Positions 9,677 through 23,044 of a stretch of 33,370 nucleotides of DNA are shown in pieces. Positions within the stretch are counted from its first letter, which is position 1; each line of letters opens with the position of its first letter. The notes under the pieces are model-generated. The model had not been told where the DNA came from, made no database searches, and worked only from the letters and a program-made list of their open reading frames with translations. A program made the translations under genes and the position numbers. The DNA comes from Acidimicrobiales bacterium (GTDB lineage Bacteria; Actinomycetota; Acidimicrobiia; Acidimicrobiales; MedAcidi-G1): positions 1-33,370 of the forward strand of contig JASLKB010000007.1 of NCBI GenBank assembly GCA_030747775.1. Direction: 5' to 3'.

Positions 9677-12368
<2,692 letters not shown>

Positions 12369-12371
12369 TCC

Positions 12372-12698
12372 TTGCGGCAGGCTGTCTCCCGCCGGTTGGT
12401 CCTAGTTCTGGTGGTTGTTACCGCCGCTGCCGCCGCTCTACCGCTTGGGGTGGTGCCGTTTCGAAACTGGTTGGAACAGCGCGACCGAACCGAGGCGTTG
12501 CGGGTCGAGGTGGAGGCCGTGGAGGCCGTGAACCGGGGCTACGAGGAGCGGATCGACGCTCTGGGCACTGACGACGAGGTCGAGCGGTTGGCCCGGGAGG
12601 ACTACGGCCTCATCCGCCCTGATGAGGAGGCCTATGCCGTCGCCCCGTCCTCTCGGTCTAAGCAGGGGATCCCGGGGGTCTGGCCGTTCGGGGATTGA
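12372..12698 (+). CDS. ftsB: FtsB/DivIC-family septum formation initiator protein
   Basis: A small bitopic membrane protein of 108 residues of the FtsB/DivIC family, which bridges FtsL and FtsQ in the divisome. One transmembrane helix spans about residues 8-28 (RLVLVLVVVTAAAAALPLGV), followed by a short coiled coil rich in Glu/Arg (LEQRDRTEALRVEVEAVEA) and the family motif VERLAREDYGLIRPDEEAY. It starts at TTG 12372, 3 bases after the eno stop; no ATG is available in frame. In other Actinobacteria DUF501 and ppx follow directly; here that pair is 7.8 kb away. Confidence 0.88.
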   Translation: MRQAVSRRLVLVLVVVTAAAAALPLGVVPFRNWLEQRDRTEALRVEVEAVEAVNRGYEERIDALGTDDEVERLAREDYGLIRPDEEAYAVAPSSRSKQGIPGVWPFGD

Positions 12699-12720: not shown

Positions 12721-15495
12721 TCAGCCGGTGTTGCGCATGCCCGCAGCGATGCCGTTGATGGTCAACAGCAGGCCCCGCTGAAGTTCCTCGTCGGCTGCCC
12801 GGCCCGCTGCGGCATCGGAACGAGAACGGTGCAGCATCTCCACCTGAAGCACGTTGAGCGGGTCCAAGTAGGCGTCACGGACGGCCAGTGTTCTGCGCAG
12901 CATGGGCTTTTCGGCGAGGAGTTCGGCGCCGGTTATGGCCTGGATCTCCTCCACGGTCCGGTGGTACTCGTCGACTACCGCTTCGAAGAGGTGGTGTAGT
13001 GACGGATCGACGAGTCGCTCGACGTAGTGGCGAGCGATCGGCAGGTCGGTCTTGGTGAGTGTCATCTCGACGTTGGAGACGTAGGTTCGGAAGAAGTTCC
13101 AGTTCTCATACATGTGGCGGAGTTCGTCACCCTGGCCGGCCGACCGGCACGACGCCAGACCACTGCCGGCGCCGAACCACCCCGGGATGATTTGACGGGA
13201 CTGCGTCCACCCGAACACCCACGGAATGGCTCGCAGGTCGGCTATTCCGGTGGTGGCCCCCTTTCGGCGGGCCGGGCGCGACCCGATGTTCATCTCGCCC
13301 AGTTCCTCGACGGGGGTGGAGGTGGTGAAGTACTCAACCAAGCCGGGCGCCTTGACGAAGCGCCGGTAGGCGGCGTACGCGCTATCGGCCATTCCGTCCA
13401 TGACCGAGTACCACCGGGCGATGGTGGCCTCGTCGTGTCGGGGGGCTCTGTGGGCGAGCGAGGCCTCGAGCACCGCGGTGAACGCCAAGTCGAGATTGCG
13501 GCGAGCGATCTCAGGATGGCCGTACTTGTCGGCGATGACCTCTCCCTGTTCGGTGAACTTCACCTCGCCGTCTAGTACGCCGTTGGGTTGACTGAGGATC
13601 GAGGCGTGCGTCGGACCACCTCCACGACCGATGGTTCCTCCCCGGCCGTGGAACACCCGGATGGGGATGCCCGTCTCCTCGGAAACTTCCCGGATGGCAC
13701 GAAGGGCCTTGTGGATCTCCCATTGGGAGGTGGTGATGCCGCCGTCCTTGTTGGAGTCCGAGTAGCCGACCATGACTTCCTGGTACCCGCCGCGAAGCTC
13801 CAGGATGCGGCGGTAAGGGGACACCTCGAAGAGGGATCGCAGAGTGGTTCCGATGGACCGGAGGTCGTCGATGGTTTCGAACAGGGGAACGAACCCGATG
13901 CGGGCCGTGTCGTGTGCTGGATCGATGAGGCCGACCTCGCGGGCCAGCACCACCGGGGCCAGTACGTCCTGGACCCCCTGGGTCATAGAGATGACGTAGC
14001 TCTCGATGACGTCGTCGCCGTCTCGGTCCATGATCAGGCGCAGTGTGCGAAACAGTGCCAGGACACCGGCGTCGTCCGGGGTACGGGGCGGAGCCAACGG
14101 CCGCCGGCTCTCCATCTCGTCAGCTAGCAGGGTGCACCGTTCGGTCGCGGTGAGGCTGGCGTAGTCGACGTTGTTGGCGGCGAAAAGTGTGGTCAGCGCC
14201 TCGTGGTGGCGATCGGAGTGCTCGCGCACATCCAGAGTGGCGAAGTGGAAGCCGATTACTTGCAGGATGCGGCGCACTCGGGCCACCGCACCGTCGGCCA
14301 GCAGTGCCCCGCCATGGGACCGTAGCGATTGGTCGATGACGTCGAGATCGGCGTGCAGTTCGGTAGGCGATGCGTATGGCTCGACTCGATCTGCCGAGGA
14401 TTCGTCGGTCGATCCTGCGGTCGCCTGTAGTCGTCGTCGAATCGCCTCACACCGAATTCGGTAGGGCTCTGAGTGGTCGACCCGGTGGCCAAGGTCGGCC
14501 AGAATTGGTGTGTCAGCCGAACTGGCCGCGGCCAGTTCAGCTGACACATCGTGGATTCGTGTGCTCACGCTGAGCTCGTGGCCCAGATCGCCCACCTCGT
14601 CGATCAGGATTTCTAGTGCCCGACGGCGCTGGAGGCCTAGCACCTCGTCGGTGGTCGAGGGAAGCACGTTGGGGTTACCGTCCCGGTCGCCACCAACCCA
14701 CGAGCCGAATCGGATAGGAACCCGGTGGTCGGGGATCGACTGCCCGATGGCAGCCAGGGTGGCCTGCATCTCGTCGAACAGGTCGGGTATGGCTTCGCGG
14801 ACGGTTAACCCGATGTAGTAGAGGATTGACCGTGCCTCGTCCATGGGTTCGGGGCGGGCGTGCCGGAGTTCGTCGGTCTGCCAGACGGCATCGATGATCT
14901 CTTCGATACGTCTGTCAATCCGCCGCTGGTCAGCTGGGGTGCGGCGTTGTTCGGACCGCTGTTCCAGAAGCTGACTTACTGTGGCCAGCTTGTCGAGGAT
15001 GGCCCGCCGGGAGGCTTCGGTGGGATGGGCGGTGAACACCGGGCGGACCTCAGCACGAGCAACGAGCGTGGCGATCTCTTCCGGGGCGATGCCCGATGCG
15101 ACTAGTGAGGGGACGGTCTCGTCGAAGTGATTTGCGGCGTTGGGTGAACCCGAGTTGAGATCCTCGATGCGATGGATCTGTTCGGCCACGTTGGCCAGGT
15201 GGAAGTAGACGGTGAAGGCTCGCACTAGGAGGATGGCGTCGGCCACGTCGGCGTCGTCGAAAAGATCGCGGAGCTCGGTGTTGCCCCGTTCCTCCAAGGC
15301 AGGGCCGTTGGGGTCGTCCTCGCGGAGGTGGCGGGTCAGGGTACGGACCCGCTCCACGGCGTCCAGTAGATCTTCGCCGTGCTGTCGGACCAGCGTGTTC
15401 CCCAGTTGGGTCCCCAGGCGCCGAATATCGGCTCGCAGCGCAGCGTCGGTGGGTTCGGGTCCCCGGTCAGGTGTGACCGATGTCAGCTGCGCCAT
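12721..15495 (-). CDS. ppc: Phosphoenolpyruvate carboxylase
   Basis: Ppc carboxylates PEP with bicarbonate to oxaloacetate and phosphate. The 924-residue protein is full length and carries all hallmark segments: VFTAHPTEASRRAI with the catalytic His, FGSWVGGDRDGNPNV, VGYSDSNKDGG, FHGRGGTIGRGGGPTHA, PWVFGWTQSR, and the invariant C-terminal MRNTG. It is oriented against ftsB (22 bases between the stops) and diverges from the malyl-CoA lyase gene, with 151 bases between. In Methylobacterium ppc lies with mtkA, mtkB and mcl in the serine-cycle cluster, and the same association here suggests it provides oxaloacetate for malate and malyl-CoA. On its own strand a TAGGTT box sits 6 bases before the ATG, so it is probably leaderless. 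Confidence 0.97.
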   Translation of the reverse strand: MAQLTSVTPDRGPEPTDAALRADIRRLGTQLGNTLVRQHGEDLLDAVERVRTLTRHLREDDPNGPALEERGNTELRDLFDDADVADAILLVRAFTVYFHLANVAEQIHRIEDLNSGSPNAANHFDETVPSLVASGIAPEEIATLVARAEVRPVFTAHPTEASRRAILDKLATVSQLLEQRSEQRRTPADQRRIDRRIEEIIDAVWQTDELRHARPEPMDEARSILYYIGLTVREAIPDLFDEMQATLAAIGQSIPDHRVPIRFGSWVGGDRDGNPNVLPSTTDEVLGLQRRRALEILIDEVGDLGHELSVSTRIHDVSAELAAASSADTPILADLGHRVDHSEPYRIRCEAIRRRLQATAGSTDESSADRVEPYASPTELHADLDVIDQSLRSHGGALLADGAVARVRRILQVIGFHFATLDVREHSDRHHEALTTLFAANNVDYASLTATERCTLLADEMESRRPLAPPRTPDDAGVLALFRTLRLIMDRDGDDVIESYVISMTQGVQDVLAPVVLAREVGLIDPAHDTARIGFVPLFETIDDLRSIGTTLRSLFEVSPYRRILELRGGYQEVMVGYSDSNKDGGITTSQWEIHKALRAIREVSEETGIPIRVFHGRGGTIGRGGGPTHASILSQPNGVLDGEVKFTEQGEVIADKYGHPEIARRNLDLAFTAVLEASLAHRAPRHDEATIARWYSVMDGMADSAYAAYRRFVKAPGLVEYFTTSTPVEELGEMNIGSRPARRKGATTGIADLRAIPWVFGWTQSRQIIPGWFGAGSGLASCRSAGQGDELRHMYENWNFFRTYVSNVEMTLTKTDLPIARHYVERLVDPSLHHLFEAVVDEYHRTVEEIQAITGAELLAEKPMLRRTLAVRDAYLDPLNVLQVEMLHRSRSDAAAGRAADEELQRGLLLTINGIAAGMRNTG

Positions 15496-15501
15496 GGGAC
15501 A

Positions 15502-15507
15502 AACCTA
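15502..15507 (-). promoter_or_regulatory. -10 box for leaderless ppc transcript
   Basis: Read on the minus strand, TAGGTT is followed by TGTCCC and the ppc ATG, a 6-base spacing typical of the leaderless promoters in this window. Confidence 0.45.
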
Positions 15508-15584
15508 GGGCCCTGCTCAGGCGCGCCTGATGTCATTTGAACCATGGGAAAACCTATCCTAATCACCCCTGTGGTTCTATTTAG

Positions 15585-15613
15585 TTGAATCTTAGGAAAT
15601 ATTCAGGCAGAAT
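15585..15613 (+). promoter_or_regulatory. Promoter of the mcl-mtkA-mtkB operon with a candidate operator in its spacer
   Basis: TTGAAT (15585-15590) and CAGAAT (15608-15613) stand 17 bases apart in an AT-rich part of the 151-base ppc/mcl gap. The spacer holds GGAAATATTC (15595-15604), which recurs inverted upstream of the glyoxylate aminotransferase. TCCTAA (15557-15562) and TTAGGA (15592-15597) form a further inverted pair 29 bases apart. Unlike ppc, mcl would have a leader of about 28 bases with a GGAG ribosome-binding site at 15639-15642. Confidence 0.45.
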
Positions 15614-15646
15614 ACGCACCAGATTTCCTCCCGGTATCGGAGCACC

Positions 15647-16594
15647 ATGAGCCACACCCGGTATGTCCCTGCCCGTCAGCGACTTCAGCGCAGCGAACTC
15701 GCTGTGCCCGGATCCAACCCGGGGATGTTCGAGAAGGCAGCGGCCAGTGAGGTTGACTACGTCTTCCTCGACCTGGAGGACGCGGTTTCCCCCGGCGACA
15801 AGGAGCAGGCCCGTCGCAACGTCATCGATGGCCTCCGGGACATCGACTGGCGGGGCCTGGGCAAAACCATCTCGGTCCGGATCAATGGCATCGACACCCA
15901 TTACATGTACCGGGACGTCGTGGACGTGGTCGAGCAGGCTGGGCACCACCTCGACACCATCCTCATTCCCAAGGTAGGTGTGGCCGCCGACGTCTACATG
16001 GTCGACGCCATGGTCAGCCAGATCGAGGAAGCCACCGGGATCGATGTGTCCGAGGGCGGTATCGGCATCGAGGTGCTGATCGAGACCACCCTTGGCATGG
16101 TCAACGTGGAGTCCATCGCCACCTCTAGTCGTCGTCTGGAGGCCATGCACTTCGGCGTAGCCGATTATGCAGCCAGCTGCCGGGCCCGAACCACCAACAT
16201 TGGTGGTCTGAACCCCGAGTACCCGGGGGACCAGTGGCACCAAGCCCTGTCCCGGATGCTGGTGGCCTGTCGGGCCTACGGCATCCGTCCGATCGACGGT
16301 CCCTTCGGGGACTTCAACGACCCCGACGGCTACCTCGACGGTGCCCGTAGGGCCGCCGCCCTGGGCTATGAGGGTAAGTGGGCCATCCATCCTTCTCAGA
16401 TCGAGCTAGCCAACCAGGTCTTCTCTCCACCTGCCGAGGAGGTCGACCGGGCCCATCGGATCCTCGTGGCCCTGGACGAGGCCGCGACCGAGGGTCGGGG
16501 GGCGGCCCAGCTCGACGGCCGCATGATCGATGCGGCGTCGGCTCGCATGGCCGCCAACGTGGTCGCTCAGGCCGCCGCCATCGTCGGCAAGTAG
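15647..16594 (+). CDS. mcl: L-malyl-CoA lyase (CitE-like superfamily)
   Basis: Mcl splits (S)-malyl-CoA into acetyl-CoA and glyoxylate, the key cleavage of the serine cycle; related enzymes also act on beta-methylmalyl-CoA. The 315-residue protein has the family blocks HRSELAVPGSNP-like QRSELAVPGSNPGMFEKAA, FLDLEDAVSPGDKEQAR (41-47 LDLEDAV), RINGIDTHYMYRD, ILIPKVGVAADVY, EVLIETTLGMVNVE (Glu142/Glu146), HFGVADYAAS (Asp173, probable Mg ligand) and GKWAIHPSQI. These match, from memory, the Methylobacterium malyl-CoA lyase much more closely than citrate lyase beta subunits, and no citDEF genes are near. It is the first gene of an operon with mtkA (42 bases later) and mtkB. ATG 15647 has a GGAG ribosome-binding site. 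Confidence 0.92.
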   Translation: MSHTRYVPARQRLQRSELAVPGSNPGMFEKAAASEVDYVFLDLEDAVSPGDKEQARRNVIDGLRDIDWRGLGKTISVRINGIDTHYMYRDVVDVVEQAGHHLDTILIPKVGVAADVYMVDAMVSQIEEATGIDVSEGGIGIEVLIETTLGMVNVESIATSSRRLEAMHFGVADYAASCRARTTNIGGLNPEYPGDQWHQALSRMLVACRAYGIRPIDGPFGDFNDPDGYLDGARRAAALGYEGKWAIHPSQIELANQVFSPPAEEVDRAHRILVALDEAATEGRGAAQLDGRMIDAASARMAANVVAQAAAIVGK

Positions 16595-16636
16595 TCCCAA
16601 CAGCACTAGTACCAGAGACCAGACGGAGACCGTCCA

Positions 16637-17809
16637 ATGGACATCCACGAGTACCAGGCCAAGGCCCTGCTCTCAGACTTCGGGGTGCCAATCGCCACCG
16701 GTGGCCTGGCCTACAGCCCCGAACAGGCCGCCTATCGTGCCAAGGAGATCGGTGGGGAAAAGTGGGTCGTGAAGGCCCAGATCCACTCTGGTGCCCGCGG
16801 TAAGGCGGGTGGCATCCGCATGTGCGATGACGAGAACGCGGTGTGGGAGGCCGCTGACGACATGCTTGGTCGTCGTCTGGTGACGAACCAGACTGGTCCG
16901 GGGGGCAAGGGTGTCTACCGCCTTTACATCGAGCCCGTGGTGCCTTTCGAGCGTGAGCTCTACCTGTCGATGGTGCTGGATCGCCAGACCGAGCGGATCG
17001 TGCTCGTCATGTCTGGCTCAGGTGGCATGGAGATCGAAGAGCTGGTCGAAACCGACCCCGGGGCCATCCACCGGATCCGTATCGAGCCGGCCGTCGGGCT
17101 CCAGGGCTTCCAGGCTCGCGAGGCCGCCTTCGCCTGTGGGCTGGGCGCCGGGCTCATCGCCCAGGCCGAGACGTTGCTGCTGGGTGCCTATCGGGCTTTC
17201 CGAACCATGGACGCCACCCTGCTGGAGATCAACCCCTTGGTGGTGACCGAGGAGGGTCGCCTACTGGCTTTGGACGCCAAGATGAGCTTCGACGACAATG
17301 CCCTGTTCCGCCACCAGAACGTGTCCGAGCTCCGGGACAAATCCCAAGAGGACCCCCGCGAGATGAACGCGGCCGATCGTGGCCTTAATTACGTGGGTCT
17401 CGAAGGCAACATCGGGTGCATCATCAACGGCGCCGGCCTGGCGATGGCCACTATGGACATGATCAAGCACGCTGGGGGCGATCCGGCCAACTTCCTCGAC
17501 ATCGGTGGCGGAGCGTCACCCGAGCGGGTGGCCAAAGCCTTCAAGCTGGTCTTGTCCGACGATCGGGTCGAGGCGATCCTCGTGAACATCTTCGCCGGGA
17601 TCAACCGCTGCGACTGGGTGGCTCAGGGTGTCGTAAAGGCCATGAATGAATTGGACGTCAAGGTCCCGGTGGTCGTAAGGCTGTCGGGAACCAATGTCGA
17701 GGAGGGGCGCCGCATCCTCGATGAGAGCAATGTCGATCTGATAACTGCAGAAACGCTGGCGGAGGCCGGGGAGAAGTCCGTGGCCGCGGTTTCCTGGGAG
17801 GCGAATTAG
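16637..17809 (+). CDS. mtkA: Malate-CoA ligase (malate thiokinase), beta subunit
   Basis: MtkA and MtkB convert malate, CoA and ATP to malyl-CoA, the substrate of the preceding lyase. The 390-residue subunit has the ATP-grasp fold of succinyl-CoA synthetase beta: [54 protein letters not shown], and a CoA-ligase part with [34 protein letters not shown] and [20 protein letters not shown]. The segments [17 protein letters not shown] and [11 protein letters not shown] are those I remember from Methylobacterium MtkA and differ from SucC (TGPMPYQGREL, FGGIVRCDLIA). With mcl directly upstream, the malate-CoA ligase reading is favoured over succinyl-CoA synthetase. ATG 16637 has GGAG 8 bases upstream. 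Confidence 0.9.
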
Positions 17810-17811
17810 TC

Positions 17812-18690
17812 ATGAGCATCATCGTCAGCGAGGAGACTCCCGTCATCGTTCAGGGGTTCACGGGACGCATGGGTACGTTCCACGCCGAGGAGATGATCGC
17901 GTATGGCACAAATGTGGTCGGGGGCATCGCCCCCGGCAAAAGCGGCTCCGATCACCTGGGCCTGCCAGTTTTCGACACCGTGAGGGATGCAGTCAGCGAT
18001 ACGGGTGCGGAGGCCAGCATCGTGTTCGTCCCGCCGCCCTTTGCTGCCGACGCCATCATGGAAGCCGTCGACTCCGGCATTTCGCACTGTGTGTGCATCA
18101 CTGACGGGATTCCGGCTCAGGACATGATGAAGGTCAAGCGCTACATGCGGACCAAGCGGGTCGAGAAACGGATGACCCTGATGGGCCCCAACTGCGCCGG
18201 CGTCATAAGTCCCGGAAAGGCCCTGCTCGGGATCATGCCGGGACACATCTACGCTCAGGGCCCGGTAGGAATCATAGGTCGTTCTGGCACGTTGGGCTAC
18301 GAGGCCGCCTCCCAGCTCAAAGCCATCGGCATCGGTGTGAGCACTAGCGTGGGCATCGGTGGGGACCCCATAAACGGGAGCTCTTTCACCGACCACCTCA
18401 AGGCCTTCGAGCAGGACCCCGAGACCAGCTTGGTGTGCATCATCGGTGAGATTGGCGGCCCCCAGGAAGCCCACGCCGCGGCCTTCGCCAGGGACCACAT
18501 GCACAAAAAGGTGGTGGCCTACATCGCCGGCCTGTCGGCTCCCAAGGGTCGGACCATGGGTCACGCCGGAGCCATCGTGACCGGTGCAGGGGAGTCGGCC
18601 GCTGAGAAGATCGAGATCATGCGAGACCATGGGGTCACCGTGGTCGAGCGCCCCTCGGACTTTGGTGCCGTCATCGCAAAGCTGTTGTAG
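17812..18690 (+). CDS. mtkB: Malate-CoA ligase (malate thiokinase), alpha subunit
   Basis: This is the CoA-binding, phosphohistidine-carrying subunit, 292 residues, starting 2 bases after mtkA. Visible are VQGFTGRMGTFHAEEMI (CoA-binding Rossmann loop), GGIAPGKSGSDHLGLPVF, FVPPPFAADAIMEAVD, ITDGIPAQDM, GPNCAGVISPGKALLGIMPGH split over neighbouring stretches, IGRSGTLGYEAASQL, SVGIGGDPINGSSF and the phosphorylated His251 in TMGHAGAI. The GIMPGHIY and FAADAIMEA stretches fit the MtkB branch. It pairs with MtkA in a heteromer and closes the mcl operon. A weak AGACC/GGTCT hairpin (18697-18714) follows the stop, without a T-run. Confidence 0.91.
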   Translation: MSIIVSEETPVIVQGFTGRMGTFHAEEMIAYGTNVVGGIAPGKSGSDHLGLPVFDTVRDAVSDTGAEASIVFVPPPFAADAIMEAVDSGISHCVCITDGIPAQDMMKVKRYMRTKRVEKRMTLMGPNCAGVISPGKALLGIMPGHIYAQGPVGIIGRSGTLGYEAASQLKAIGIGVSTSVGIGGDPINGSSFTDHLKAFEQDPETSLVCIIGEIGGPQEAHAAAFARDHMHKKVVAYIAGLSAPKGRTMGHAGAIVTGAGESAAEKIEIMRDHGVTVVERPSDFGAVIAKLL

Positions 18691-18761: not shown

Positions 18762-19076
18762 GTGCGCGAGATCTTGAATGACTTGCAGCGTTGGCGCCGG
18801 CAGGGCCACCCAGTGGCGCTGGCTCGCGTGGTCGACGTGGAGGGATCTGGGCCGCGCCTGCCCGGGGCCGTCATGGCCGTCACCGCTGACGGTGAGGTGG
18901 CGGGGTCGGTCTCCGGGGGATGCGTGGAGGGCGCCGTGGTGTCCGAGGCTCTCGACGTGCTGGCGACCGGTGATCGTCGCATGGTCACCTTCGGCTACAG
19001 CGACGACGAGGCGTTCGCCGTGGGTTTGACCTGTGGTGGCACTATCCACCTGTTCATCGAACGCCTGGACTGGTAG
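18762..19076 (+). CDS. XdhC/CoxI-family maturation factor, N-terminal part (split gene)
   Basis: XdhC/CoxI proteins handle molybdenum cofactor and its sulfuration for xanthine dehydrogenase and aerobic CO dehydrogenase. This 104-residue product is the XdhC_CoxI N-terminal domain, with VALARVVDVEGSGPRLPGAVM, GEVAGSVSGGCVEGAVVSEA (Cys in GGCVEG) and FAVGLTCGGTIHLFIERL. Most actinobacterial relatives I recall are single proteins of ~370 residues in which this domain continues into a linker and a Rossmann domain. Here a TAG at 19074-19076 ends it exactly in the linker, and the rest follows in the same reading frame. The product may work as a separate subunit or be a truncated remnant. Confidence 0.8.
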   Translation: MREILNDLQRWRRQGHPVALARVVDVEGSGPRLPGAVMAVTADGEVAGSVSGGCVEGAVVSEALDVLATGDRRMVTFGYSDDEAFAVGLTCGGTIHLFIERLDW

Positions 19077-19079
19077 CCG

Positions 19080-19886
19080 GTGGGTGGGGTTTTCGACCGA
19101 TTAGCAGAGCTGCTGGTTGACGAGGTACCGGTGGCGTTGGCCACCATCGTTGAGGGTGTGGGAGTGGACGGACCGGATGGCCACCTCCTGGTGCGCCGGA
19201 GCACCGGCGATGGCGTGGAGGTGGTGGGGTCGCTGGGTGACCCCGACCTGAACCGGGTCGTTGCCCGGGACGCCCTTGGTGAACTATCGGCGGGGCGAAG
19301 TGGAGTCCGCCACTACGGCGAGCACGGTGAGGCCCGTGGGGAGTCGGTGTCGGTCTTCGTGGAGTCGTTTGCCGCCCCGCCGCGGATGCTGGTGTTCGGC
19401 GCCGTGGACTTCACTGCGGCGTTGGTCCGTGTGGCCAAGGTGCTCGGCTACCGGGTCACCGTCTGCGATGCCCGAGAGATCTTTGCCACCACCCAACGGT
19501 TTCCGTTGGCTGACGAGGTCGTGGTGGATTGGCCTGATCGGCTACTGGCTGAGGTGGGAGCCGACCTGCGGCGACGTGATGCGGTGTGCGTGCTGACTCA
19601 CGATGTGAAGTTCGACGTGCCGGCCATCGTCGGGGCGTTGGCCACGTCGGTCGGCTACATAGGGGTGATGGGGTCTCGTCGGACACATGACGATCGACTC
19701 AAACGGCTTCGCGAGGCGGGTATCACCGACGAGCAGTTGGCCCGCCTGCGGTCACCTATCGGACTGGACATCGGCGCCCGGACTCCCGAAGAGACGGCCG
19801 TGTCGATCGTGTCGGAGATCATCGCCCTACGGACCGGACGCTCGACCCGTGCTCTGTCAGCCACCGACGGCCCGATCCACGACTGA
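19080..19886 (+). CDS. XdhC/CoxI-family maturation factor, C-terminal part (split gene)
   Basis: The frame of the preceding xdhC continues past its TAG stop. The first available start is GTG 19080, 4 bases after the stop, with no ribosome-binding site, so expression would depend on reinitiation or readthrough. The 268 residues hold the linker region (LAELLVDEVPVALATIVEG) and the C-terminal Rossmann domain XdhC_C: PRMLVFGAVDFTAALVRVAK, YRVTVCDAREIFATTQRFP, VVDWPDRLL, VCVLTHDVKFDVPAI, GVMGSRRTHDDRLKRL and IGLDIGARTPEETAVSI. These are well preserved, arguing against a long-dead pseudogene. A sequencing error at the TAG cannot be excluded. MobA-like 19896 follows 9 bases later. Confidence 0.8.
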   Translation: MGGVFDRLAELLVDEVPVALATIVEGVGVDGPDGHLLVRRSTGDGVEVVGSLGDPDLNRVVARDALGELSAGRSGVRHYGEHGEARGESVSVFVESFAAPPRMLVFGAVDFTAALVRVAKVLGYRVTVCDAREIFATTQRFPLADEVVVDWPDRLLAEVGADLRRRDAVCVLTHDVKFDVPAIVGALATSVGYIGVMGSRRTHDDRLKRLREAGITDEQLARLRSPIGLDIGARTPEETAVSIVSEIIALRTGRSTRALSATDGPIHD

Positions 19887-19895
19887 GGTTGGAGA

Positions 19896-20480
19896 ATGGT
19901 GTCCCGGGCCGCCGTGGTACTGGCCGCTGGTGGCGGCTCCCGTTGGGACGGTGACGGCCACAAATTGCTGGCCGAAGTAGACGGGCGACCACTGGCCGCC
20001 CATGCCCTCACCGCCGCGGCCGATGCGGGCCTGGACGAGCTTGTCGTAGTGACAGGAGCCGTAGACCTGACCGGGGTTTTGGCTGGGGTGCTGGACGAGA
20101 CGCTGCCCGTCACGGTCAAGGTGCTGCACAACGAGCGGTGGGCCGAGGGACAGGCCGGGTCGCTCGGGTTGGCCGTAGCCCACGCGGCGGCCGTTGGCCA
20201 TGACGCCGTGGTGGTTGGTCTGGCCGACAGCCCCGGGGTGCCCACCGAGGCTTGGCAGGCCGTAGCCGCCGTTGAAGCGGAGCTCGCGGTGGCCACCTTC
20301 GCTGGTCGTCGACGACCCCCGACCCTCATTGGTCGAGCTCTCTGGGGCCAGCTCCCTCAAGTCGGTGACCAAGGCGCGCGCGTCCTATTGGACGAGCGGC
20401 CGGATCTGGTGGTGGAAGTTCCCTGTCCCGGTGATCCCACTGACGTGGACACCATGGAGGACCTGTGGCGATGGACCTGA
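19896..20480 (+). CDS. MobA/MocA-like nucleotidyltransferase (molybdenum cofactor cytidylyltransferase-like)
   Basis: The 194-residue protein has a MobA-like NTP-transferase fold that adds CMP or GMP to molybdopterin in related enzymes. The N-terminal AAVVLAAGGGSRWDGDGHKLLAEVDGRPL is the nucleotide-binding loop region (in the order GGGSRW then HKLL then GRPL); NERWAEGQAGSLGLAV and VVVGLADSPGVPTEAW follow, the latter replacing the usual GDxP metal site with ADSP. PPTLIGRALWGQL and GARVLL-DERPDLV complete the fold. Its place right after xdhC suggests preparation of the cytosine-dinucleotide cofactor for a molybdenum hydroxylase such as CO or xanthine dehydrogenase, none of which is in the window. 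It has a GGAG ribosome-binding site and overlaps the next gene by 10 bases. Confidence 0.83.
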   Translation: MVSRAAVVLAAGGGSRWDGDGHKLLAEVDGRPLAAHALTAAADAGLDELVVVTGAVDLTGVLAGVLDETLPVTVKVLHNERWAEGQAGSLGLAVAHAAAVGHDAVVVGLADSPGVPTEAWQAVAAVEAELAVATFAGRRRPPTLIGRALWGQLPQVGDQGARVLLDERPDLVVEVPCPGDPTDVDTMEDLWRWT

Positions 20481-21874
20481 ATGATGACCGGCCGACCGAG
20501 GGGTCGGTCGTCGAGGCGTTGTTGGGTCGCCGTCCGAAGGGGGCCTTCGAGGTCGTGGTCCGCGACCAGGGTGGTAGTCCGGTGGTCATCCGCAACCACC
20601 CGCTGCTTGACGACGGTCGACCCATGCCCACCCGCTTCTGGTTGGTGGGGGACGTGCTCCGGTCACGCATCGGTGCTCTCGAATCGATCGGTGGGGTTCG
20701 AGATGCCGAGGCCGCCTGCGACCCTGTCGAGTTGGCCGAGGCCCATGAGCGGTACGCCGAGGAACGGGATGCAGCGATTCCCGCCGACCATGTCGGGCAT
20801 CGACCGTCCGGTGGCGTGGGCGGCACCCGACAGGGCGTCAAATGCCTGCACGCCCACTACGCCTGGTACTTGGCGGGGGGCGATGATCCGGTAGGCCGTT
20901 GGGTTCACGATCGGCTTGCCTTGAGTCGGGACACGAGCGCTGTGGCTGCCATCGACTGCGGGACGAACTCCACCCGGCTCCTGATCGGCCAGGCGTCTGC
21001 GGGCGTGGGTCCGGCTGGGTTCGAGACCCTTGAGAGGCGGATGCACATAACCCGGATGGGAGAGAGGGTCAACGCCACCGGTCGGCTGGCTTCACAGGCC
21101 ATCGAACGGGTGCTGGCCGTCCTGGCTGAGTACCGCGAGGCCATGGACGCCCACGGCGTGACCAGGTGTCGTATCACCGCCACCTCGGCTGCTCGGGATG
21201 CCGCCAACCGAGATGAGTTCTTCGACGCAGCCCAGGCCGTCGTTGGATTCCGACCCGAGCTGCTGTCCGGTATGGCCGAGGGGCGCCTCGCCTTCGCCGG
21301 TGCCACCGCGGACCTCGATCCGAGGGACGGGCCGTTCCTGATCGTAGACATCGGCGGTGGCTCGACGGAGTTTGTGGTCGGGACCACCGAGGCCGAGGCG
21401 GCACGGTCGTGCGACATCGGGTGCGTCCGTTTGACCGAGCAGTGGATCGAGCATGACCCACCCCGACCCGAAGAACTGGTGGCTTGCCTATCGGTCACCG
21501 AGGCCCACCTCGACGAGGTGCTACGCGAGGTGTCGGGGGTGGCCGATGCCCGCACTCTGGTTGGCCTAGCCGGCACCGTGTCATGTGCAGCAGCCGTAGA
21601 AATCGGGCTGGCCGAGTATGACCGGGACCGTATCCACCACTTCCGCTTGTCCAAGGAGGCGGTAGAGGACGTCTACCGCACTCTTGCTACCGAGGATCGA
21701 GAGGAGCGTCTTGCCAATCCCGGTATGGAGGAGGCGCGGGCCGACGTGATCGTGGGCGGGCTATCGATCCTGGTCAAAGTGATGCGCCAGCTCGGCTTCG
21801 ACGAGTGCCTGGTCTCGGAGTCCGACATCCTCGATGGTCTGGTGGCGTCGCAACTGGGAGAGTCATCTGGCTGA
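20471..21874 (+). CDS. Fusion of DUF501 with Ppx/GppA-family exopolyphosphatase
   Basis: The 467-residue protein joins two genes that are separate neighbours in other Actinobacteria (in Mycobacterium Rv1025 and ppx2). Residues ~12-150 are DUF501, with LGRRPKGAFEVVVRD, PTRFWLVGDVLRSRI, ERYAEERDAAIP and the motif VKCLHAHYAWYLAGGDDPVG. Residues ~158-465 are Ppx/GppA: AAIDCGTNSTRLLIG (159-173), TATSAARDAANRDEFF, FLIVDIGGGSTEFVVG and GLAGTVSCAAA, the actin-like phosphate and adenosine loops. Ppx hydrolyses polyphosphate; GppA hydrolyses pppGpp. No stop or frameshift separates the parts. ATG 20471 has GGAGG 10 bases upstream; GTG 20465 is an alternative. It overlaps mobA. Confidence 0.9.
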   Translation: MDLNDDRPTEGSVVEALLGRRPKGAFEVVVRDQGGSPVVIRNHPLLDDGRPMPTRFWLVGDVLRSRIGALESIGGVRDAEAACDPVELAEAHERYAEERDAAIPADHVGHRPSGGVGGTRQGVKCLHAHYAWYLAGGDDPVGRWVHDRLALSRDTSAVAAIDCGTNSTRLLIGQASAGVGPAGFETLERRMHITRMGERVNATGRLASQAIERVLAVLAEYREAMDAHGVTRCRITATSAARDAANRDEFFDAAQAVVGFRPELLSGMAEGRLAFAGATADLDPRDGPFLIVDIGGGSTEFVVGTTEAEAARSCDIGCVRLTEQWIEHDPPRPEELVACLSVTEAHLDEVLREVSGVADARTLVGLAGTVSCAAAVEIGLAEYDRDRIHHFRLSKEAVEDVYRTLATEDREERLANPGMEEARADVIVGGLSILVKVMRQLGFDECLVSESDILDGLVASQLGESSG

Positions 21875-21949: not shown

Positions 21950-23044
21950 ATGTCGCACGCAGACCGCATCCTCATGGGCCCTGGTCCGGGTAACCCGTAC
22001 CCCGAGGTCATGGAGGCCTTTGCCCGCCCGGTTCTGGGTCATCTCGACCCAGATTTCATCACCCTCATGGATGAGACCAACGAGCGCCTCCGTCAGGTGT
22101 TCCGCACGGCTAACCCGCTGACATTCCCGGTTTCGGCTACCGGCTCGGCCGGCATGGAGGCCACGTTCGTCAACGTGCTGGGCCCCGGTGACGTGGTCGC
22201 CATCGGTGTCAACGGTGTGTTCGGAGAGCGCATGTGTGATGTGGCCGCCCGTTGCGGCGCCGAGGTCGTTCGAGTCGAAGCCGAGTGGGGCACGGCCATC
22301 GACCCGCAGGCTCTGCTGGACGTCCATCCATCCCCCAAGGTCATCGCCGTGGTGCACGCCGAGACGTCTACCGGCGTCCGCAACGACATCGCTCCCATCG
22401 GCGCCGGAAAGGGCAACGCCCTCCTGCTGGTCGACTGTGTGACGTCCCTGGGTGGGATCCAGCTGGAGGTCGACGACTGGGGCGTGGACCTGGCCTACAG
22501 CGGTACCCAGAAGTGCCTAGGCGTACCACCCGGGCTCTCACCGGTCACCGTGTCCCAGGCCGCTATCGACGCCTTCGTTGAGAAGTCGCAGTCCTGGTAT
22601 CTCGACTTCACCATGATTGCGAACTATGTGACCGGTGGTGGCGCCCGTGTTTACCACCACACGGCCCCCATCTCGATGCTGTACGCCCTCCATGCCGGGC
22701 TTGGTGTCGTGCTCGAGGAGGGGCTCGACGAAGTGCAGGCCCGGCACCAAGCGTGTGGTGACCGGCTTCAGGAAGGACTGGTCAAGCGGGGCTTCCAGCT
22801 CTTCGCCCAGGAGGGCCACCGTCTGCCCGAGCTCACTTCGGTGATCGTCCCAGCCGACCGCCTACCCGATGGCGTCGACGAGGCGGGCGTGCGTCACCGC
22901 CTCCTGGTCGAGTACGGGATCGAGATCGGTGGTGGTCTCGGCCCCGTGGCCGGCAAGGTCTGGCGCATCGGCTGCATGGGCCACACTGCCCGAGAGCGCA
23001 ATGTCACCATGCTGCTGGGCGCGTTGGACGAGATCATGGGCTGA
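21950..23044 (+). CDS. Alanine/serine-glyoxylate aminotransferase (AGXT-like, class V)
   Basis: A PLP aminotransferase of 364 residues that should convert glyoxylate to glycine with serine or alanine as amino donor. It shows LMGPGPGNPYPEVMEA, GHLDPDFITLMDE, FPVSATGSAGMEATFVNVL (cofactor phosphate), HAETSTGVRNDI, VDCVTSLGG with Asp162, Lys188 in YSGTQKCLGVPPG as Schiff base, YHHTAPISMLYAL, and GGLGPVAGKVWRIGCMG. These follow animal/bacterial AGXT more closely than the Methylobacterium SgaA sequence I remember, so the donor is open; serine use would complete the serine-cycle link to hydroxypyruvate. It is transcribed alone, from a probable leaderless promoter, downstream of DUF501-ppx and 3.3 kb from mtkB. 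Confidence 0.9.
   Translation: MSHADRILMGPGPGNPYPEVMEAFARPVLGHLDPDFITLMDETNERLRQVFRTANPLTFPVSATGSAGMEATFVNVLGPGDVVAIGVNGVFGERMCDVAARCGAEVVRVEAEWGTAIDPQALLDVHPSPKVIAVVHAETSTGVRNDIAPIGAGKGNALLLVDCVTSLGGIQLEVDDWGVDLAYSGTQKCLGVPPGLSPVTVSQAAIDAFVEKSQSWYLDFTMIANYVTGGGARVYHHTAPISMLYALHAGLGVVLEEGLDEVQARHQACGDRLQEGLVKRGFQLFAQEGHRLPELTSVIVPADRLPDGVDEAGVRHRLLVEYGIEIGGGLGPVAGKVWRIGCMGHTARERNVTMLLGALDEIMG

Follow-up and report, generated by a model that had tools for sequence, protein, structure and literature searches.

Does a reading frame that runs from DUF501, a domain of unknown function, straight into a Ppx/GppA phosphohydrolase encode a real two-part protein, and if so, do its parts work together, and on what substrate? 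The question is raised by one gene of the window, that is, of the whole 33,370-nucleotide stretch of DNA analyzed here. A first-pass annotation had read the gene as one uninterrupted 467-residue chain and had taken the fusion to mean that DUF501 works with exopolyphosphatase, for example in the turnover of polyphosphate or pppGpp.

The fusion gene and its two domains

The single chain is borne out by the sequence: translation of 20471-21874 yields 467 residues with zero internal stops (469 aa from the GTG at 20465), and both domains are found above their Pfam cut-offs, DUF501 (PF04417) at residues 30-146 with 87.6 bits (cut-off 23.8) and Ppx-GppA (PF02541) at residues 183-462 with 191.9 bits (cut-off 27). 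The gene is composed as follows:

20471..21874, + strand: DUF501-Ppx/GppA fusion gene, 467 aa, ATG at 20471, alternative GTG start at 20465
20558..20908, + strand: DUF501 domain (PF04417), residues 30-146 by Pfam
20909..20938, + strand: short linker between DUF501 and Ppx, residues 147-156, without an in-frame ATG
20939..21871, + strand: Ppx/GppA two-domain phosphohydrolase core (Pfam stretch 21017-21856)
21194..21196, + strand: R242 in the ATSAARDA motif, invariant, by motif the likely counterpart of Rv1026 Arg90
21278..21280, + strand: E270, invariant, by motif the likely counterpart of Rv1026 Glu123
21347..21370, + strand: D293 to E300 (DIGGGSTE), invariant, from motif and equal spacing the likely counterparts of Rv1026 Asp146 and Glu153

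Both halves retain the residues that mark their families. Across 58 aligned DUF501 sequences, the window's included, the invariant positions are R20 (just N-terminal of the Pfam stretch), P37, V39, P53, T54, E71, R99, G118, K124, C125, L126, and H127, and the window protein has the family's KCLH motif (K124 to H127) together with R20, E71, and R99. In the Ppx half, R242, E270, D293, and E300 are invariant across 29 fused proteins and correspond, by motif rather than by alignment, to Arg90, Glu123, Asp146, and Glu153, which are given as catalytic in Rv1026 of M. tuberculosis in an excerpt of PMC3411833. Judged by these motifs, the gene product would be one two-part enzyme whose C-terminal part, a short phosphohydrolase of the Ppx/GppA type, retains its conserved catalytic positions.

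Structure prediction gave confident models of DUF501 alone (pLDDT 95.2, pTM 0.89; 58 sequences) and of the full chain (pLDDT 95.2, pTM 0.80; 87 sequences in the alignment, two of them fused). Compared with our own estimate of ~0.65 for a chain with no preferred orientation, the full-chain pTM of 0.80 hints at a moderate preference in the predicted orientation of the domains. The 50 structure matches to the full chain among the matches listed all fall on the Ppx core (residues about 150-467), and the DUF501 model had no match above probability 0.05 in Foldseek against the PDB, none with Z of 2 or more among 111 chains by VIA-align, and none with E under 0.001 against the viral models of BFVD. 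The best match of the Ppx half in both sequence and structure is the exopolyphosphatase-like protein Q8G5J2 (3cer) of Bifidobacterium longum (phmmer E 3.9e-53 over residues 144-463; structure Z 45.9, rmsd 1.4, 309 residues over 154-467); 3cer matches the Ppx part alone, and the DUF501 part is without a solved relative in these searches. The Ppx half also resembles Aquifex Ppx, and it shares a common catalytic core with the long Ppx and GppA of the E. coli type (1u6z and 6pbz, Z 37.6 and 31.8). In those chains of ~490 residues, however, the extra domains are C-terminal, whereas the extra domain of the window fusion is the N-terminal DUF501.

Retention and recurrence of the fusion

The fused gene is the sole match to the protein, and the sole Ppx-GppA match, in the window's genome (2.26 Mb, 92% complete), and since the assembly is in 266 contigs, an assembly or frameshift artefact might be suspected. 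The genomes of the genus make this possibility negligible. The fusion is found in seven of the 17, the window's own included (L001 and L031-L036; the other 10 are split), these seven separate assemblies form one clade (support 99/92 in the careful tree), and their frames are open, with diverged linkers. The six fused proteins besides the window's are 81-91% identical to it; in three of the six, one stop is counted inside the match, with the frame open across the junction and ending within a few codons of the end of the window protein. With seven assemblies fused and the junction frames open, an artefact at the junction is excluded in practice.

The fusion protein has matches in 47 of the 48 genomes of the window's family, and three family members beyond the genus (L037, L038, and L039) are also fused, bringing the count to 10/47. 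On the family tree these three are placed among split loci, and the fusion state requires a minimum of four changes, a count that does not tell gain from loss. Three loci with full-length matches in the genome searches (L003, L040, and L041) have stops between the domains and were scored as split, as was L126, in which the domains are joined across a run of N. One genome (G313) has a fused DUF501-Ppx plus a second DUF501 match, on contigs C35 and C55, which could come from a duplicated gene, a mixture of strains, or contamination.

Sampled more widely, the class has matches in 284 of 296 genomes, and at least 11 fusions, confirmed by reading the loci, are scattered within the window's order, to which all of them belong. 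In a second lineage of class rank within the phylum (the class of G572), 24 of 27 genomes match, and in 17 of the 24 the whole fusion lies in one open frame over the full query; in three more (G455, G475, and G485) the junction is crossed by a truncated match, and the remainder are interrupted by stops or changes of frame (G359 and G446), lie on two contigs (G533), or have a distant Ppx only (G524). A further fusion, L106, has almost no linker. A quick tree was built from 175 loci that have both domains (37 fused), after weak or truncated Ppx rows, short DUF501 stretches, and identical pairs had been left out; it requires 13 changes of the fusion state, a rough figure because many forks are weak. 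(With L126 dropped, 38 of 126 loci are fused, a share that carries no meaning because the loci were partly picked as fused-looking.) The DUF501-Ppx fusion is thus recurrent and has arisen several times. A literature search returned no published description of it; domain databases such as InterPro may list one.

How the genes could be joined is suggested by the split relatives. DUF501 and ppx are adjacent in all 10 split genomes of the genus, and in nine of the 10 the stop of DUF501 and the start of Ppx share an 8-base overlap, so that a small indel is enough to join the frames. The fusion may have originated in such a small shift at the overlapping stop and start, although both the direction and the cause of the events are inferred. 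The same arrangement is the main argument for a neutral origin, in which translationally coupled, overlapping neighbors are joined by a small indel and the product is two independently working domains: the overlap of about 8 bases is usual in the split relatives throughout the family, fusions occur scattered through the order, and fused proteins have linkers of very different length and sequence, which means that no fixed linker geometry is conserved. Neutral joining sits less easily with the retention of the fusion through a clade of seven genomes and its frequency in the second class-rank group, and with the maintenance of DUF501-Ppx adjacency far outside the window's lineage; we regard it as unlikely, though with a real claim to attention.

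Two further measurements bear on this point. Among fused genomes (six of the genus's seven), the median dN/dS is 0.068 for DUF501 and 0.085 for Ppx (dS defined in 11/15 pairs each), and among the 10 split genomes of the genus it is 0.099 for DUF501 (42/45 pairs) and 0.138 for Ppx (45/45 pairs); both halves are thus under strong purifying selection when fused. As a control, we asked how often other close gene pairs of the same loci are fused, using 48 loci, namely the family's 47 and L138 (the same stretch of one genome as L112, so that each control count contains one duplicate). DUF501 and Ppx are fused in 10 of the 48 (11 with the N-run artefact L126), and two pairs that lie close by are never fused, XdhC-MobA (0/21 measurable) and Ppx-aminotransferase (0/30 measurable). 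These control pairs lack gene overlap and so have a smaller chance to fuse, and they are only suggestive of selective fusion of DUF501 with Ppx.

Gene neighborhood of DUF501 and ppx

Sampling of 396 genomes across the phylum finds DUF501 in 279, and two of the 14 control genomes, those of Thermotoga maritima and C. glutamicum, also have it. In a search that started from DUF501, Ppx adjoins it in 27 of the best 30 loci, many of which are close relatives; in a further set of 20 DUF501 loci, one from each family, chosen among the matches listed, Ppx follows within 300 bases in 18. In these one-per-family loci, divIC is found anywhere in the stretch in 16/20, and immediately upstream, or with an S1-like gene alone between, in 14/20, the divIC counts including some stretches that are short upstream. 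The usual gene order is eno-divIC-(S1)-DUF501-ppx; small custom profiles underlie the S1-like assignments and most of those of divIC and eno, and a Pfam check covered DivIC in four cases. The row extends outside the phylum to Halanaerobium saccharolyticum (Bacillota; L175, 855-5414), where divIC is followed by the gene of a 723-aa protein that has an S1-like match, and then by those of an S1-like protein, DUF501, and Ppx. In some lineages it is divIC that DUF501 keeps: Ppx lies at a distance of 0.6 to 2.7 kb in L147, L150, L169, and L173, and it was not found within the fetched stretch around DUF501 in L221 and L230.

The window has eno, divIC, DUF501, and ppx on one strand in the common operon order, but the four genes are not contiguous:

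about 11091-12368, + strand: eno (enolase)
12375..12698, + strand: DivIC/FtsB-like gene directly behind eno, DivIC by Pfam
19896..20480, + strand: MobA-like NTP transferase, its stop overlapping the fusion start by 10 bases; context, outside the fusion
21950..23044, + strand: class V aminotransferase, serine-glyoxylate aminotransferase-like by context, the next gene downstream of the fusion

The 7.9 kb between divIC and DUF501 encode PEP carboxylase, which is on the other strand, as well as a CoA lyase, a sucC/sucD-like pair, XdhC, and the MobA-like protein; as eno and divIC have stayed together, and DUF501 and ppx likewise, it is between divIC and DUF501 that the row was broken. The distance from ppx to the class V aminotransferase gene is below 150 bases in the 30 loci where it is measurable, and the two are never fused.

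Some features of the surrounding DNA deserve mention in their own right. The genes for PEP carboxylase, the HpcH/HpaI-type CoA lyase, the sucC/sucD-like pair, and the class V aminotransferase (12721-18690 and 21950-23044) resemble a serine-cycle set, and they sit between eno-divIC and DUF501-ppx and just past the latter. The CoA lyase and ligase pair is present between PEP carboxylase and XdhC in L241, L242, L244, and L246, and was unmatched there in the fetched stretches of two fused relatives (L240 and L243). XdhC of the window (18762-19886) consists of an N-terminal and a C-terminal frame split by a single in-frame TAG (19074-19076), and is one frame in L138. Family relatives mostly have about 550-860 bases between the MobA-like gene and DUF501, occupied by what is, judged by sequence, a CoxG/SRPBCC-like gene; in the window and four relatives this stretch is gone, and MobA nearly or truly touches DUF501. 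Just upstream of enolase, 9677-11080 encodes a MazG pyrophosphohydrolase joined to a domain of the tetrapyrrole-methylase type.

A similar neighborhood is reported from other actinobacteria. In M. tuberculosis, Rv1024 is FtsB, Rv1025 is DUF501, and Rv1026 is the Ppx-type protein, and a neighborhood legend places enolase, Ppx/GppA, and DUF501 around ftsB (excerpts of PMC10166564 and PMC3411833). Like Cg1113 and Cg1115 of C. glutamicum, Rv1025 and Rv1026 pair DUF501 with a short Ppx/GppA under adjacent or nearly adjacent gene numbers, but as separate polypeptides according to these excerpts, whereas the window has one chain. Essentiality of DUF501 is reported for C. diphtheriae, C. glutamicum, and M. 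tuberculosis, and synteny has led to the proposal that it acts in division (excerpt of PMC10166564); in M. smegmatis, it is stated to be fused to FtsB instead (excerpt of PMC9846249), which is also a fusion of operon neighbors but with the other neighbor and on the other side.

DUF501 could on this account be a factor of cell division or growth that belongs with FtsB/DivIC, its link to Ppx being a by-product of the shared operon. The commonness of the eno-divIC-(S1)-DUF501-ppx row, with a divIC-like gene in 16 of the 20 one-per-family stretches, the reported essentiality, and the M. smegmatis fusion all speak in favor of such a role. Yet Ppx is the more persistent neighbor (18/20 versus 14/20 for divIC, some stretches being short upstream), and in the window it was with ppx that DUF501 remained when divIC remained with eno. 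Seven DUF501 frames with long upstream extensions were also considered as possible FtsB-DUF501 fusions and rejected: none of the seven has a recognizable DivIC domain, and the extensions are probably mere open frame in GC-rich DNA. A division factor with an incidental Ppx neighbor is, in our judgment, improbable.

The wide adjacency of DUF501 and Ppx (18/20 loci, 27/30 loci, and Halanaerobium), together with the recurrent fusion and the constraint on both halves, instead supports a functional association, and the fusion is probably functional. This much of the proposal that DUF501 works with exopolyphosphatase stands; the part concerning polyphosphate turnover is not supported, as set out below. 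N-terminal DUF501 would be a partner domain that in most relatives is a separate protein from the neighboring, often overlapping gene, and the fusion may have been kept because the parts already worked side by side.

Candidate substrates and the probable part played by DUF501

A module for polyphosphate turnover would include a polyphosphate kinase in the same genome. The window's genome (92% complete) has no match to the kinases PPK1 and PPK2 (PF02503 and PF03976), and each profile is matched in 0/17 genomes of the genus. Within the family, PPK1 is above its cut-off in 1/48 genomes (G312), with one further weak match below the cut-off, and PPK2 is found in 1/48 (G301). The PPK1 profile works in the class, where it matches 147 of 198 genomes; the control of the PPK2 profile covered the named control genomes only. 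One RelA/SpoT gene is present in the window's genome. The Ppx half scores 217.9 bits against the NCBIfam model TIGR03706 (exo_poly_only), below the cut-off of 307.

Published work on the separate Ppx proteins is divided. Exopolyphosphatase and pppGpp hydrolase activities of recombinant Rv1026 were undetectable in vitro, a modest ATPase and a lesser ADPase activity were measured, and rv1026 is needed for optimal growth; the C. glutamicum Ppx2, Cg1115, assayed as a separate protein, is active on short polyphosphate (all from an excerpt of PMC3411833). A review, citing another group, describes PPX2/Rv1026 as an exopolyphosphatase acting on long-chain polyphosphate and deficient mutants as accumulating polyP (excerpt of PMC8529327).

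The fusion might accordingly be read as a polyphosphate-degrading enzyme with DUF501 as its polyphosphate-binding domain. This would agree with the matches of the Ppx half to solved exopolyphosphatases and with the raised polyP of PPX2-deficient M. tuberculosis in the review excerpt, but it runs against the 0/17 genus genomes with PPK1 or PPK2, the lack of exopolyphosphatase activity of Rv1026 in vitro (excerpt of PMC3411833), and the sub-cut-off exo_poly_only score, and we consider it quite doubtful. The kinase searches make polyphosphate unlikely as the main substrate in the window's lineage, and with Rv1026 inactive on both compounds in the same excerpt, the proposed role in polyphosphate or pppGpp turnover is not supported. 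Our preferred, if tentative, alternative is that the short Ppx probably acts on a small phosphoanhydride of the nucleotide type; in the window's lineage, this would probably be a compound such as a nucleotide rather than polyphosphate.

DUF501 would most likely bind the Ppx core and help in substrate binding or choice, a putative contact for which the predicted full-chain model gives indirect and moderate support. Whether DUF501 is, as a whole, a partner domain of a short Ppx/GppA enzyme that aids the binding or selection of a substrate other than polyphosphate is to our minds an even call. The reported essentiality of DUF501 (excerpt of PMC10166564) and the activity of Cg1115 as a separate protein (excerpt of PMC3411833) suggest that DUF501 may exceed the role of a Ppx helper and need not be required for Ppx activity. 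In a bolder and more tentative form, which we rate as rather unlikely, DUF501 would be a subunit of a widespread two-part Ppx/GppA enzyme that is coupled to the divIC cluster and hydrolyzes a nucleotide-type phosphoanhydride, with no service to polyphosphate. If true, such an enzyme would explain both why the two parts are under strong selection in a family nearly without polyphosphate kinases and why Rv1026 on its own is without polyphosphatase activity.

Apart from the choice between these readings, the natural, recurrent fusion is a ready construct for asking whether DUF501 is a Ppx/GppA subunit, a matter of some weight for a protein of no known function that corynebacteria and M. tuberculosis reportedly cannot do without (excerpt of PMC10166564). 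Lineages that retain Ppx where PPK1 and PPK2 are not found likewise offer a test case for the true substrates of short Ppx enzymes. As a side observation, in family f29, with genomes of ~1 Mb, PPK1 occurs only in G029, G116, and G136 among the matches listed, and 34 of the 42 genomes match the DUF501-Ppx protein.
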